The position numbers and the translations under genes were made by a program. Below, one piece after another: positions 55,090 to 60,511 of a stretch of DNA of 64,000 bases (its first letter is position 1; each line of letters starts with the position of its first letter). A model generated the notes under the pieces. The model was not told the origin of the DNA and did not search any database. It saw nothing but the letters and a program-made list of their open reading frames with translations. This stretch comes from an uncultured Bacteriovoracaceae bacterium (GTDB lineage: Bacteria > Bdellovibrionota > Bacteriovoracia > Bacteriovoracales > Bacteriovoracaceae). The stretch is from positions 62,001 to 126,000 of the forward strand of contig CATLOT010000003.1 of the NCBI GenBank assembly GCA_950054155.1, given 5' to 3'.

Positions 55090-56403
55090 ATGCAGAAGTC
55101 TCTTAACCTCCATAAGCTAATCACAACGGTTTTGATAAGCTTAATAGGTCTTATGTTCTTCTCAAAGCTTAGTTTAAAGTGGACGAAACTCGTACCAAGA
55201 AGCCTCCCACCGCTTATTTTCCAACATGGTATGCATCCCTATATAAACTTTGGTCTTAACTTTTTAGCCTTTCTCATTCTTTTTTTCTATTGGATTAAAA
55301 AGAATAAGCGCTTTGCAACCTCAAAAACCTACTCAGCCTTCACAATTATTCTCTTATTAACTTTGGCAGTTCAAACAATTTCTCAAATTATTTTTGTCAA
55401 CGTTTCATTTTCTCCCTGGTTACAGCTCTCTGGCTTTCTCATGGCCTTCATCCTTATCACAATGTATTCCCTTATTATTCCAAACCTCTTTCCCATTGAA
55501 AAAGCGATCTATTGGATAAGAAATTTTTCCGTTGCTCTTGTTCTCCTGTCCTTACTTCTTCTGCCTCTCTTTTATCCCACCTTTTTTAAAGGGGGTCGCT
55601 TCATTGGTGTCTTTAAGCATATCCCCCATATGGTTTCAGCATCCACTTTCGCTTTTATCTTCCTCATCAGAGACGTCTTTAGACCACGCCCAGCATGGAC
55701 TAGGATGCGACGAAACTTTAATATTTTAGCCCTCTTTTTGATTGCTATCGCCATAATCATGACAAGCACTAAAGCAGCCTTTGTCACCATGGTCATGACC
55801 TTCCTCAGCTCCCTCTTCCTCTTTCCAACCCTCAGAAAAAGTATCGCACTTTTCAAAGTTACCTTTCTCCTCGTCTTCAGCCTCGGTATCCTCCTCTTTG
55901 GCGGCCCTGCCACAAACCTCTTTTATGAAATCACAACAGGGAAAAGATCATTTGGAATGCGAAAAGCTCAAAATGGAATCAAAACCCGCCTCGAAGAGGT
56001 CTATAGAGGTTTGGAATACTTTCAACAAGAACCCCTCTTAGGAAGAGGCTTACTTTATAAATTTATGAGCGGAAAGGGCATTAAGGTCAGTGGCTATAAC
56101 TCTTTCAAAGACCCCCATAACCTTTTTGTGAGCGCTGGTGTAATTGGAGGATGGCCTCTTCTTATTCTCTCTATCATTGGTTATCTTTTGATGATCTATG
56201 GTGCTATTAATGGAATGCTTAGCTCCTCTTTTGATGTTCGGGTTATGGGGATTTTTCTTTTTTCTCATCTTCTTGTTTTTATTATTTATCATGCTCACTT
56301 TTCTCTTGGGGGGCTTGGAGATAGGATGTATTGGCTAGTGTTCGGCTACCTTGCCCTCTTTAAACTGACCCCCAAAGATGGAGTTCAATATAGCAATAAG
56401 TGA
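55090..56403 (+). CDS. O-antigen polymerase/ligase-like protein, 3' end changed by insertion
   Basis: The 437-residue membrane protein has about eleven hydrophobic helices and the Wzy_C block with GRGLLYKFM followed by DPHNLFVSAGVIGG, as in O-antigen ligases and polymerases. The terminal residues FKLTPKDGVQYSNK and the stop are encoded within the left end of the insertion sequence (from 56362), so the native C-terminus has been replaced. The gene probably still encodes a nearly complete protein because only the tail is affected. It is in one operon with the SLBB gene. It would polymerise or transfer a polysaccharide. Confidence 0.75.
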   Translation: MQKSLNLHKLITTVLISLIGLMFFSKLSLKWTKLVPRSLPPLIFQHGMHPYINFGLNFLAFLILFFYWIKKNKRFATSKTYSAFTIILLLTLAVQTISQIIFVNVSFSPWLQLSGFLMAFILITMYSLIIPNLFPIEKAIYWIRNFSVALVLLSLLLLPLFYPTFFKGGRFIGVFKHIPHMVSASTFAFIFLIRDVFRPRPAWTRMRRNFNILALFLIAIAIIMTSTKAAFVTMVMTFLSSLFLFPTLRKSIALFKVTFLLVFSLGILLFGGPATNLFYEITTGKRSFGMRKAQNGIKTRLEEVYRGLEYFQQEPLLGRGLLYKFMSGKGIKVSGYNSFKDPHNLFVSAGVIGGWPLLILSIIGYLLMIYGAINGMLSSSFDVRVMGIFLFSHLLVFIIYHAHFSLGGLGDRMYWLVFGYLALFKLTPKDGVQYSNK

Positions 56404-56442
56404 GCTTTCTTAAATAAATTCCAAGACATATAGCCTAGAAAA

Positions 56443-56468
56443 GGTGCTTCTCTAAACAAGGAAGCACC
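56443..56468 (+). repeat. Hairpin just upstream of transposase start
   Basis: GGTGCTTC and GAAGCACC form an eight-base perfect stem around a ten-base loop, ending two bases before the transposase ATG. A structure here would hide the ribosome-binding region, a known way of limiting transposase expression from passing transcripts. No ribosome-binding site is visible outside it. Confidence 0.6.
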
Positions 56469-56470
56469 CT

Positions 56471-57313
56471 ATGTGTCCCCACTGCCATTCAACTGACCAT
56501 CTCATTAAAAGAGGTACTTATCGCCGCCCATCAGATCGTAAAAAAATTCAACGATTTCACTGTAAGAAATGCAATAAAGGGCACTCTTCGCAAACTCATT
56601 CATATGATTACCGACAACGTAAAAGACATATTAATCAAATGGTTTTTAGGCTTTACAGTAAGGGCAACTCTGAGCGTGCAATCGCACAAATCATTGGTGT
56701 GAATAAAAAAACTATCGCTCGGCGAGTAACTCCTTTCGCAAATTGTGCAAGAAAACACTTAGAAAAAATGAGAGCTGAGACAGCCGACATAACGGAGATC
56801 GTTTTCGATGAAATGGAAAGTTTTGAGCATACCAAACTAAAACCTCTGACAATTCCACTGGCTGTCGAAAAACATACTCGAAAGATCCTTGCTTATGACG
56901 TCGGAGAGATAGCCGCAAAGGGCCCTTTAGCACGCTTAAGTATAAAAAAGTATGGAAAAATAAAGTGCCAAAGACGAAAAGTTCTAGACTCTCTCTTTCG
57001 ACAACTACACCATGTTGCCCATCCTCGTTGTAACTTCTCTTCAGACGAATCTCCCCATTACCCAGGTACACTCCGAAGATACTTCAAAGATGCACAACAC
57101 CAGCAATTTAAAGGACGATCTGCTTCAATTGTTGGCCAGGGCGAAATGAAAAAAGGCGGCTTCGACCCACTATTTTCATTGAACCAAACTGCGGCAATGA
57201 TAAGGGACAATATTAAACGCCTTACTCGACGAACCTGGTGCACAACCAAGCGCATCGATCGCCTGTCAGATTATTTGGCAATCTATGCTTTTTACCATAA
57301 TCAAATAATTTAG
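56471..57313 (+). CDS. IS1-like DDE transposase with N-terminal zinc ribbon
   Basis: The 280-residue protein starts with a zinc ribbon (MCPHCHSTDHL with FHCKKCNKG), followed by a helix-turn-helix region (SERAIAQIIGVNKKTIARR), then a DDE-like core: IVFDEMESFEHTK, a SSDESPHYPG segment and a helical end with RIDRLSDYLAIYAFYHN. The order and wording parallel IS1 InsAB, here as one frame. No frameshift is needed. It is the only gene of the insertion sequence. Confidence 0.85.
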   Translation: MCPHCHSTDHLIKRGTYRRPSDRKKIQRFHCKKCNKGHSSQTHSYDYRQRKRHINQMVFRLYSKGNSERAIAQIIGVNKKTIARRVTPFANCARKHLEKMRAETADITEIVFDEMESFEHTKLKPLTIPLAVEKHTRKILAYDVGEIAAKGPLARLSIKKYGKIKCQRRKVLDSLFRQLHHVAHPRCNFSSDESPHYPGTLRRYFKDAQHQQFKGRSASIVGQGEMKKGGFDPLFSLNQTAAMIRDNIKRLTRRTWCTTKRIDRLSDYLAIYAFYHNQII

Positions 57314-57443
57314 GGCACGACAAGACCAAGGCTCTTTAATGCCTACTAACTCCATTTTACGGGGTCAGTTTGAATATTTTACAGGGCTCTCCCTACATTC
57401 ATTTGTTTAAGATATATTTCCCGCAAAAGGCGGCAGGAAATTT

Positions 57444-57560
57444 ATGGAACCAACTCAAAGAGCTAGACTAAAACTCAAAATACAATTAAAAAAACAAGAC
57501 TACGCGATCTTTGTGATTCTATCACTTATCGTCCTCATCAGTAATATTCCTCAATTATAA
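57444..57560 (+). CDS. Single-helix membrane peptide of 38 residues
   Basis: An AGGAAATTT ribosome-binding site precedes ATG at 57444, and 38 codons run to TAA at 57558-57560. The product has a basic first half (ARLKLKIQLKKQDY) and a transmembrane segment (AIFVILSLIVLISNI). It lies between the insertion sequence and the secreted-protein gene. Could be a small membrane regulator or a toxin-like peptide; no antitoxin is seen. The overall coding look is good but the short length makes chance possible. Confidence 0.5.
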   Translation: MEPTQRARLKLKIQLKKQDYAIFVILSLIVLISNIPQL

Positions 57561-57577
57561 AGAGTTTTAATACTCTT

Positions 57578-57964
57578 CTAATAGTCTTTACAATACCAAT
57601 CGAGAGAATGGACTTTAAAGTTAGGGAGTCTAACGAATGACTTGTATTTCCCATTTTCAGGAAAAACTCTGTCAATTCTCACTCGATAATTTCCTGTCGT
57701 AAAAAGAAGCACTCGTCCCTGGTATTTTTCAATGAGGTTTAACTTTTTATAGAAAGTCTCCTCTTCGCCGTTAAAAATATAAGGTACTTCTACTTCGAAA
57801 AACTCGGTACGACCAAGTTTTGACTCAACAATAAATAACTCTTCAACTCTCTCATAGTTCCCAAAGTTCAAACAATGGAAGATTCTCTCACGATCAATGT
57901 TAAGGCCTTTTCCTTCAATAAATGGGCTTACCAATAGCAAAAATAGGACAAAATTAACTTTCAT
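57578..57964 (-). CDS. Small secreted protein expressed from inverted-repeat element
   Basis: The frame is open from 58024, but the ATG at 57964 (preceded by AAGGGG seven bases upstream) gives 128 residues with a signal peptide (MKVNFVLFLLLVSPFIEGKG). The mature domain is basic, with Cys at HCLNFG and at the end YCKDY. Not recognised. The start codon lies in the left arm of the 205-bp inverted-repeat element, and its leader is identical to that of the thioredoxin gene on the other side. Confidence 0.65.
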   Translation of the reverse strand: MKVNFVLFLLLVSPFIEGKGLNIDRERIFHCLNFGNYERVEELFIVESKLGRTEFFEVEVPYIFNGEEETFYKKLNLIEKYQGRVLLFTTGNYRVRIDRVFPENGKYKSFVRLPNFKVHSLDWYCKDY

Positions 57965-58166
57965 AAACTGACCCCTTAAAATGGTGATAAAAAGTAGAAG
58001 ATCCCTTAATAAACGCTCTTTCAAGCATTTAAACTCGTTTCAAGAGTGTGAGAAAAACTATCCATGTATCTATTTTAGTTAATTTTATGTAATTATAAAG
58101 CCTTAAAATTATTTAGGTTTTTCTTTATTAATTAAATTTATATCCATTTTAAGGGGTCAGTTTATG
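57962..58166. mobile_element. Miniature inverted-repeat element related to the adjacent insertion sequence
   Basis: Perfect 23-bp inverted repeats, CATAAACTGACCCC plus TTAAAATGG at 57962-57984 and the inverted copy at 58144-58166, bound an AT-rich core of 159 bases with no coding sequence. The repeat matches the right end of the neighbouring insertion sequence at 19 of 20 positions and the left end at 17 of 20. It therefore looks like a non-autonomous derivative (MITE). Each arm carries AAGGGG and the ATG of the outward gene, so the element also serves as a divergent leader. No target duplication was found. Confidence 0.7.
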
Positions 58167-58592
58167 GAGTGCCTAACTGTTGAGAATTTTGAACAAGTTG
58201 TGAATCAAGAAGAAGGCCTCTTCATCATCAAGTTCTCCTCCCCAACCTGCGCCCCCTGCAAATCAATGGCACCAGTTCTAAAAAAGTTAGAACAAAATAA
58301 TAGTGGTGTAAATTTCTACGAAATAGATACAATGCAAAGCCCCGAACTCGCGGCACACTTTAACGTAAGAGGGGTGCCCTACATTGCTTTTTGCGAAAAC
58401 CGAGAAGTCATTTATGATTTTACTGGACTCACCCCAATAGGAAGCCTTCAGTACGTTATCAATAATATTAACGATGCCTATTATCGTGAATATGGTGAGT
58501 TTAAAACTGAAGAAGAGGCTAAGAATTATTGGTTCGAACTTACTCTCGCCTTTATAGTTCTTATTTTTATTCTTGCCCTCTTTCTCTTGTAA
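58164..58592 (+). CDS. Membrane-anchored thioredoxin-like protein
   Basis: The 142-residue protein has a thioredoxin fold with FIIKFSSPTCAPCKSMAP (Cys29-Ala-Pro-Cys32), VRGVPYIAFCEN with the cis-Pro, and a C-terminal transmembrane helix (WFELTLAFIVLIFILALFLL). The redox domain has no signal peptide, so it would face the cytoplasm with a C-terminal anchor. It probably reduces or exchanges disulphides of cytoplasmic partners at the membrane. It starts in the right arm of the inverted-repeat element, with AAGGGG as ribosome-binding site. Confidence 0.8.
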   Translation: MECLTVENFEQVVNQEEGLFIIKFSSPTCAPCKSMAPVLKKLEQNNSGVNFYEIDTMQSPELAAHFNVRGVPYIAFCENREVIYDFTGLTPIGSLQYVINNINDAYYREYGEFKTEEEAKNYWFELTLAFIVLIFILALFLL

Positions 58593-58660: not shown

Positions 58661-60511
58661 TTGAAGGTCTTAATTGTTGAAGAAGATAGTCAAATAAGAG
58701 ATTATCTCTCCATGCTTCTTGAAGCGGGTCTCGAGTGTGAAATCATCGAAGCCAGCTCTGGAAATGAAGCCGTCACCATTTTTGAATTTGAAGAGGATAT
58801 TGACCTCGTTATAAGTGAAGTTCTAATGAAGGGTGGAGGTGGGCACCTTATTGTCGATTACCTTGACGAGAACAATATTACCATCCCTTTTATTTGGTTG
58901 TCTCATCAACAAAATAAAGAAGTCCAAGTAGTAAAAGAAGTACTTAAGAGAGACCCTCTTAATGCTTTTATTTGTAAGCCATTTAAAGATACCGACTTTC
59001 TTCCCATCATTGAAAATGTTTTAGCGAGCTTGCCCGTAAAAGAAGAAAGCCAGCAGAGTGACTTCGATAAAGCTCAAGCGCAGGGTAACCAACAAGAGAG
59101 GCAAAGCCACGAAGGCATTAAACAATCTGATAGAAGAGAAAACTCATCTCGCTACGAAGATCTATACGCTAGAGATAAGAAGAAAGCCCTTGAAGAGGGG
59201 GATGCAGATTGGAGTATAGGCCTTAAAAGAAAGAACATTGACGACGAAGCTGCGGACTATTCTTTAAAAGTAAAAAATAAGTCCCAAGAACAAGAAGCAG
59301 ATTGGGATCTTAAAAATAGAAGCGAAGCTTCTGAGCAAGAGGCTGATTGGGATCTTAAGAATAAAGGCAATGCTTCTGAAGAAGAGGCCGACTGGGATCT
59401 TAAAAATAAAAGCGAAGCTTCTGAGCAAGAGGCCGACTGGGATCTTAGGAATAAAAGCGAAGCTTCTGAGGAAGAGGCTGACTGGGATCTTAAGAATAAA
59501 GGCGAAGCTTCTGAGGAAGAGGCTGATTGGAGCCTTAAAAAGAAGAAAGCCTCTTTGGAGGATAATGTTGAAGGCTATAAGAAAATTAAGATTAAGCGAT
59601 TTTTGAATTTTTCGACTTTAGTGTGTGGTGCCTATATTAAACTTGGCAAAGCGAAAATGGTCCGCATTATTGGAGAGGGAAAACCCTATGGGCAGGAGCT
59701 TATTGAGAAGTATCTTGATAAGGGGATCGAGTTTCTATTTGTGGAGGATCAAGATTACAAAAGATTTACGCTGCAATTCTCAGATTTAGTAAGCAGTAGA
59801 CTGACCCTGGCTCAGAAATTTAACGACGAAATTAAAAGTGTTGCAGAACTCGCGGCCTTTGAGAGCACTCGTCAATTGGCTCGGGAGTTTGGTGTAAGCG
59901 AAATTGCGGCAGAAAAAGTCAAAGAGAGTGTTGAGTCCAACCTCAAAAGTCTCGCCAAAAAGCCCAACCTTGAGGCGCTTTTACAGAGAATTCTTCGAGG
60001 CGGTGATTATATCTCAGAGCGTAGTTTACTTGTCAGTCATTTTGCGGGGCAGATATGTCTGAACACCAGCTGGTCTTCTGATGAGACTTTGCAGAAACTC
60101 TCGATGGCGGCGCTGATGCATGATATCGCTCTTGAGGAGAATAGACTTGCGAAAATATCAAGCCTCTCAAAGGCAACTCAGCTTACCGAGGAGGATAAAA
60201 GGCTAATTAAAGAACATCCAGGTCAAGCCGCTAAAATAATATCTGAGGGTGAAAGTGTTTTCTCTGATGTTGAATCCATCATTATTCAGCATCATGAGAA
60301 GCCTGATCAATCGGGCTTTCCAAGGGGTCTAGGCTCTCTTTCCATCTCTCCCCTAAGCTGTATCTTTATCATTGCCAGTGAGTTTGCTTATGAGGTCTAT
60401 GGTAAAAAGCCCTCAGACATTGATATGGCGGCCATAAAAGAAAAATTCAATGAGCAATTCTCTTCAGGAAATTTTAAAAAGCCCTTACAAGCCTTTCTCG
60501 CAGCCTTCTAG
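58661..60511 (+). CDS. HD-GYP protein with diverged receiver and tandem-repeat linker
   Basis: The 616-residue protein starts at TTG 58661 with AAGGAG before it. Residues 1-125 are a receiver domain, but the phospho-acceptor position reads VISEVLMKGG, so Glu53 replaces Asp; this may lock it in an active-like state or make it a pseudo-receiver. Residues about 180-300 are a low-complexity linker with six 15-residue repeats (EADWDLKNKSEASEQ type). The C-terminal half is an HD-GYP-like domain with His487-Asp488, HHE at 544-546 and GFP at 552-554 (GYP variant), so cyclic-di-GMP hydrolysis is plausible but the diverged motifs make it uncertain. Confidence 0.8.
   Translation: MKVLIVEEDSQIRDYLSMLLEAGLECEIIEASSGNEAVTIFEFEEDIDLVISEVLMKGGGGHLIVDYLDENNITIPFIWLSHQQNKEVQVVKEVLKRDPLNAFICKPFKDTDFLPIIENVLASLPVKEESQQSDFDKAQAQGNQQERQSHEGIKQSDRRENSSRYEDLYARDKKKALEEGDADWSIGLKRKNIDDEAADYSLKVKNKSQEQEADWDLKNRSEASEQEADWDLKNKGNASEEEADWDLKNKSEASEQEADWDLRNKSEASEEEADWDLKNKGEASEEEADWSLKKKKASLEDNVEGYKKIKIKRFLNFSTLVCGAYIKLGKAKMVRIIGEGKPYGQELIEKYLDKGIEFLFVEDQDYKRFTLQFSDLVSSRLTLAQKFNDEIKSVAELAAFESTRQLAREFGVSEIAAEKVKESVESNLKSLAKKPNLEALLQRILRGGDYISERSLLVSHFAGQICLNTSWSSDETLQKLSMAALMHDIALEENRLAKISSLSKATQLTEEDKRLIKEHPGQAAKIISEGESVFSDVESIIIQHHEKPDQSGFPRGLGSLSISPLSCIFIIASEFAYEVYGKKPSDIDMAAIKEKFNEQFSSGNFKKPLQAFLAAF
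59294..59563 (+). repeat. 45-bp tandem repeats in HD-GYP gene linker
   Basis: Six consecutive 45-bp units (starting at 59294, 59339, 59384, 59429, 59474 and 59519) encode 15-residue repeats of the EADWDLKNKSEASE type. The upstream DADWSIGLK and AADYSLKV segments are older, decayed copies. Near-identity of the DNA shows recent expansion, so copy number is expected to vary between strains. Confidence 0.9.

Follow-up and report, generated by a model that had tools for sequence, protein, structure and literature searches.

An IS1-like insertion sequence (IS) and a 199-bp element with ends of the same type lie within 600 bp of each other in the 64-kb window, by which we mean the whole stretch of DNA that was analysed. 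The region comprises the following features:

55090-56403, + strand: O-antigen-ligase-like gene (Wzy_C match), native C-terminus replaced
56362-57371, + strand: IS1-like insertion sequence of 1,010 bp with ends AAACTGACCCC...; target duplication not recognisable
56362-56385, + strand: left terminal inverted repeat of the IS, 21 of 24 positions equal to the right end
56471-57313, + strand: transposase, 280 aa, single ORF; NF033558 (IS1) 67.3 bits, cut-off 100
57348-57371, - strand: right terminal inverted repeat of the IS
57578-57964, - strand: flanking gene encoding 128 aa, N-terminus signal-peptide-like; native start codon directly next to the MITE
57965-58163, no strand assigned: MITE, 199 bp, without ORF, interior 23% GC, single-copy
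57965-57984, + strand: left terminal inverted repeat of the MITE
57972-57977, - strand: mirror copy of AAGGGG for the 57578-57964 gene, 7 nt before its ATG
58144-58163, - strand: right terminal inverted repeat of the MITE
58151-58156, + strand: AAGGGG, Shine-Dalgarno-like (putative function), 7 nt before the ATG at 58164
58164-58592, + strand: thioredoxin-like gene, 142 aa (PF00085, 8e-21); native start codon abuts the MITE

The 24-bp inverted ends of the IS, with 21 equal positions, are as given in the preliminary description. The smaller element had been described as 205 bp long with perfect 23-bp ends. The repeat is indeed perfect, but its outermost CAT/ATG already belong to the two divergent flanking genes as their start codons, and the element is therefore 199 bp long with identical 20-bp repeats. 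Its ends equal those of the IS at 17 of 20 positions on the left and 19 of 20 on the right, the same figures as originally reported. With up to three mismatches allowed, AAACTGACCCCNNNAAATGG has exactly four matches in the window, all of them the ends of these two elements (0.12 expected; four reached in 0 of 100 shuffles). The smaller element is short, contains no transposase ORF, has terminal inverted repeats and shares its ends with an IS, and we class it as a MITE on these grounds.

Translation of the O-antigen-ligase-like gene continues 42 nt into the IS, the left end of which encodes the last 14 residues; alignment with the orthologues stops at residue 96 of 110. The two genes beside the MITE start at the same positions as their orthologues (L218, L219 and L221 for the 57578-57964 gene, L215-L217 for the thioredoxin-like gene). 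Since both start right at the MITE ends, with AAGGGG 7 nt before each ATG, these ends are possible ribosome-binding sites, and the terminal repeats may now act in this way for both flanking genes. A promoter scan of the MITE yielded three weak sites, against 1.6 expected. At 58661-60511 the window encodes a response-regulator-like protein in which peptides of the EEADWDLKNKSEAS type are repeated in a run.

The transposase combines N-terminal Cys pairs, a helix-turn-helix (HTH, residues 59-85) and an RNase-H-like DDE core (residues 106-280). Its NF033558 score lies below the curated cut-off, and we therefore name the element IS1-like, not IS1; each of the 17 relatives aligned, all from the phylum, matches the same profile. 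Of the acidic residues that could form the DDE triad, D113, D192 and D232 are invariant in the aligned transposases; E226, another candidate for the third position, is missing from two relatives. An AlphaFold model (pLDDT 85) superimposes on the ISCth4 transposase with Z 12.9 (rmsd 7.7, 244 residues aligned) and Z 12.7 (rmsd 3.4, 196 aligned), and on retroviral integrase cores with Z about 10; the protein is thus predicted to have the DDE/RNase-H-like catalytic fold. The IS resembles the IS1 family in the Cys motif, the HTH and the DDE-type fold, and differs from it in its single 280-aa ORF, its length of 1,010 bp and its score under the cut-off. Its ends, AAACTGACC, are presumably unlike those of IS1 of Escherichia. 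In other families of the phylum, an end core near AACTGNCC is shared by most relatives.

Hereafter G000 denotes the window's own genome, C numbers denote contigs, and G001-G006 are other genomes of the genus. G000 contains four complete IS copies; ten more IS ends lie at contig breaks, which brings the estimate to about nine copies. It also has 14 MITEs of 199-205 bp with ends of the same type as the IS. Four MITEs (192-205 bp) are present in the congener G006, and two shorter ones with the same end core (L129 and L130; 153 and 155 bp) in G021, from a related genus. A search for the repeat and the element, suggested in the preliminary description as a check on mobility, thus returned several copies with shared ends and variable flanks in G000 and G006. 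These copies occupy unrelated sites, which is the opposite of a single copy conserved at the same place in all relatives. Nor are the ends widespread in genomes that lack the transposase: G000 and G006, both of which carry it, have 37 and 14 matches to the end pattern, whereas G001-G005, without it, have 0-2, compared with 0-2 for the reversed control. Among the seven genomes of the genus, the ends exceed the control only in the two with the transposase. The view of the window pair as a non-autonomous element beside its likely partner is borne out as far as the ends shared with a co-resident IS are concerned, but in a genome with some nine copies of the IS and 14 MITEs their closeness is nothing special. 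The window MITE has no match in phages and the IS none in plasmids; two single matches of the end pattern in viral contigs, in or beside phage genes, were judged to be due to chance.

Exact 11-bp duplications flank the MITEs C8b, C2b and C9a, and decayed ones are found at C11a (8 of 10 or 11 positions) and at C80 of G021 (9 of 11). An IS copy split across contigs C57/C11 has a duplication with 9 of 11 positions equal, and the IS relatives in G020 include one exact 11-bp duplication, TTAACCTTTTT, and a second at 9 of 11. The duplication length is 11 bp in both MITEs and IS copies. The range usually given for IS1 covers 8-11 bp, and the 9-11 bp at C57/C11 and at the two G020 copies fall within it. 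At most copies a target duplication is absent. Two tandem direct MITE pairs, on C2 (L054, C2:119815-120231) and C9 (L059, C9:17018-17430), have spacers of exactly 11 bp, each equal to one outer flank; these pairs are best read as a second copy inserted directly next to the first.

The proposed comparison with empty sites was successful for two loci. The genes flanking IS_C16 are adjacent and convergent in G002, G003 and G005 (gaps of 33, 11 and -8 bp), and those surrounding the C9 MITE pair are consecutive in G001, G002, G003 and G005. The genes flanking the C57/C11 copy are convergent neighbours in three relatives. For the window MITE the comparison gave nothing, because its flanking genes are not adjacent in any relative, and their upstream neighbours vary among congeners, so that no empty site is demonstrable. 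The intact and decayed 11-bp duplications and the empty sites nonetheless argue for a mobile MITE cohort that would be served by the IS1-like transposase, a reading we regard as well supported. Downstream of feoB on C10 of G000 (L287), the position of a MITE in G006, AACGGAGAGACCCCCCTTTAAAATGAGAC resembles a decayed element end and is perhaps the scar of a lost copy.

One IS copy bears the mark of IS-IS recombination. The native partners of the two genes flanking IS_C5 (L065/L150, C5:73746-74755) adjoin other IS ends (C36, C39; the second partner was identified through L228 and C39e), and IS_C5 is therefore a recombinant. Its right flank has an extra AAACTG immediately before the end.

Recombination of this kind is also the basis of another explanation for the window MITE, namely that a host divergent promoter or other DNA was trapped between two IS/MITE ends, which would leave outward-facing ends with no target duplication. 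The interior of the element, with 23% GC, lies below every other MITE of G000 (28-41%) and shows no relation to them in a profile test; it has no second copy elsewhere in its own genome or the genus. No target duplication surrounds the window MITE, and no relative has the two flanking genes side by side. These properties would all fit trapped DNA. However, the 199-bp length borders on the narrow range covered by the 13 other MITEs (200-205 bp), the 20-bp ends are perfect, and the interior is unlike the native upstream regions of the orthologues of either gene (P 0.22-0.81), and we consider this origin unlikely. Assignment of the window element to the MITE cohort, which we prefer, rests on its ends and its length. 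With a singleton interior and without a target duplication this copy is by itself no proof of mobility, and we only infer that it has transposed.

The preliminary description had presented the pair as a good natural case for studying MITE formation. Formation from the neighbouring IS is not supported, as none of the MITE interiors is similar to that of the IS (P=0.30 for the window element), and for this lack of similarity we reject an origin by internal deletion, which not every MITE needs to have. G000 MITE lengths are tightly clustered (mean 201.7, sd 1.5). The profile test for shared descent of the interiors supports the copies on C1, C2, C8, C11 and C28, gives weak support for C39 and two G006 copies, and gives none for the window copy, C9, C17 and two G006 copies. 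Several interiors are therefore unrelated at the level of the test, and we reject common descent of them all. We also considered a structured RNA and rejected it: an Rfam search was empty, and the folding z-scores of whole elements are owed mostly to the terminal repeats. Interiors folded alone are mostly at the level of shuffled sequences, with C39 as an exception.

The ends of the MITEs differ slightly but systematically from those of the IS, with TGGTG in place of TGGA past the common part, and at one end many G000 MITEs carry GTCGGTCAG or GTAGGTCAG rather than GGGGTCAG. The mover may therefore have been a different relative of the transposase, possibly one since lost. In its full form this alternative holds that a different transposase, lost or diverged, moved the MITEs, and that their likeness to the local IS reflects a common family of end sequences only. 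Besides the end differences, including second ends of the GTCGGTCAG/GTAGGTCAG type, which most G000 MITEs have, other transposases or fragments, 40-57% identical, are present in G006 and G021 (the G006 ends are AACTGCCC/AACTGGCC). Yet G000 has no related transposase besides the IS1-like one, 17-19 of 20 positions in the window MITE ends agree with the local IS, and both IS and MITEs make 11-bp duplications. We are accordingly doubtful of a separate mover, while granting it slightly more weight than trapped DNA.

MITEAba12 has a near-constant length of 111-114 bp, conserved ends, a highly variable centre and an interior unrelated to ISAba12; its duplications have the same length as those of ISAba12, 9 bp, and only some copies have them (PMC6382973). 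The cohort described here is similar in its constant length, conserved ends, variable centre and IS-unrelated interior, in duplications as long as those of the IS and in their presence at only part of the copies, whereas MITEAba12 goes with a different IS, has 9-bp instead of 11-bp duplications, measures 113 bp and has far more uniform copies (PMC6382973). QMITE2 of Coxiella, as cited in a review (PMC10969869), lies mainly at gene 3' ends and is targeted by IS1111. It shares the position at gene 3' ends with the MITEs here, and differs in its unrelated sequence and in being an IS1111 target.

The positions of the copies relative to genes follow a pattern. The flanking gene could be set against orthologues at 23 IS/MITE boundaries, and at 17 of these the native stop codon is no more than about 7 nt away. 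For two orthologue searches several protein ends were joined as one query, and the matches were re-aligned piecewise before use. The boundaries away from native stops are those of C8c (both sides), C11b, C11s, IS_C3 and G6C7. In other families, too, IS copies are often found where one or both flanking ORFs end, among them ORFs that we take, by eye from the sequence, to encode acyl carrier protein, RlmN, pyruvate kinase and CheY. Three IS copies have a stop codon at positions 2-4 of the duplication (TAG at C57, TAA twice in G020). The element tip, TAAACTGA, carries TAA and TGA, a stop in two of the three frames, so that genes entered at the last codon still terminate correctly. No description of this placement was found in the open-access literature searched.

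Replacement of inverted repeats, as in IS1272, might seem to explain both the abutment on stops and the missing duplications, if terminator stem-loops between genes were replaced by the element. IS1272 provides the precedent, as it removes its stem-loop target and leaves no duplication, and some of its copies are at or near gene ends (PMC5678879). The copies here resemble it in the absence of a duplication from most of them and in their abutment on stops. They differ from it (PMC5678879) in the intact 11-bp duplications at both IS and MITE copies and in the terminator-like hairpin kept by one of them: at feoB in G006, the MITE sits between the native stop codon and an apparent retained terminator hairpin. 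Moreover, several ancestral sites were overlapping or abutting stops, with little space for a hairpin. This mechanism is very improbable.

Abutment on stops is partly expected, since convergent genes in this genome are tightly packed (median gap 10 bp), and selection in a gene-dense genome accounts for part of the placement. A target preference for stop codons or TAA-like sequences is also possible. Abutting pairs (gap ≤15 bp) make up about 10% of convergent intergenic positions, whereas four of the five IS insertions compared in G000 and G006 (IS_C16, C57/C11, IS5L/C36L and C9 of G006; window copy excluded) are in such pairs. The comparison tentatively favours a preference, on a small sample of insertions for which either the native convergent flanks or the full flanks are known, and with crude gene calls. 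It is conceivable, although we lean slightly against it, that the IS1-like group of this phylum truly prefers gene 3' ends and that its tips restore stops, making insertion nearly harmless. The preferred targets would then be stop codons, often overlapping convergent stops (TTAA/TTAG), with N-TAR-N7 as the target, a detail that we put forward with the same reserve.

We consider it highly probable that the window contains one copy of an IS1-like element, bounded by AAACTGACC-8-TGG, and that the 199-bp element belongs to a cohort of roughly 200-bp MITEs sharing these ends. Most likely the IS-encoded transposase binds the ends of both, and it would mobilise the MITEs in trans. Insertion would proceed by DDE strand transfer, with duplication of 11 bp of target as seen in some copies. 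The MITE interiors would not be cut-down IS interiors; what appears to be kept is the ends and, in G000, a length of 199-205 bp. Copies would persist mostly where no gene is broken, very often exactly at neighbouring stop codons, and later IS-IS recombination would reshuffle flanks and erase target duplications.

The pair is an ordinary IS with MITE passengers, a known kind of mobile DNA, and, as far as we found, without precedent in this bacterial family. Less usual is the habit of inserting precisely at the stop codons of adjacent genes. The MITE cohort poses the question why the elements keep to about 201 bp when several of their interiors have become unrecognisably different. If true, the stop-codon target preference would clearly exemplify an IS that spares its host by landing at gene ends, with tips that bring their own stops.
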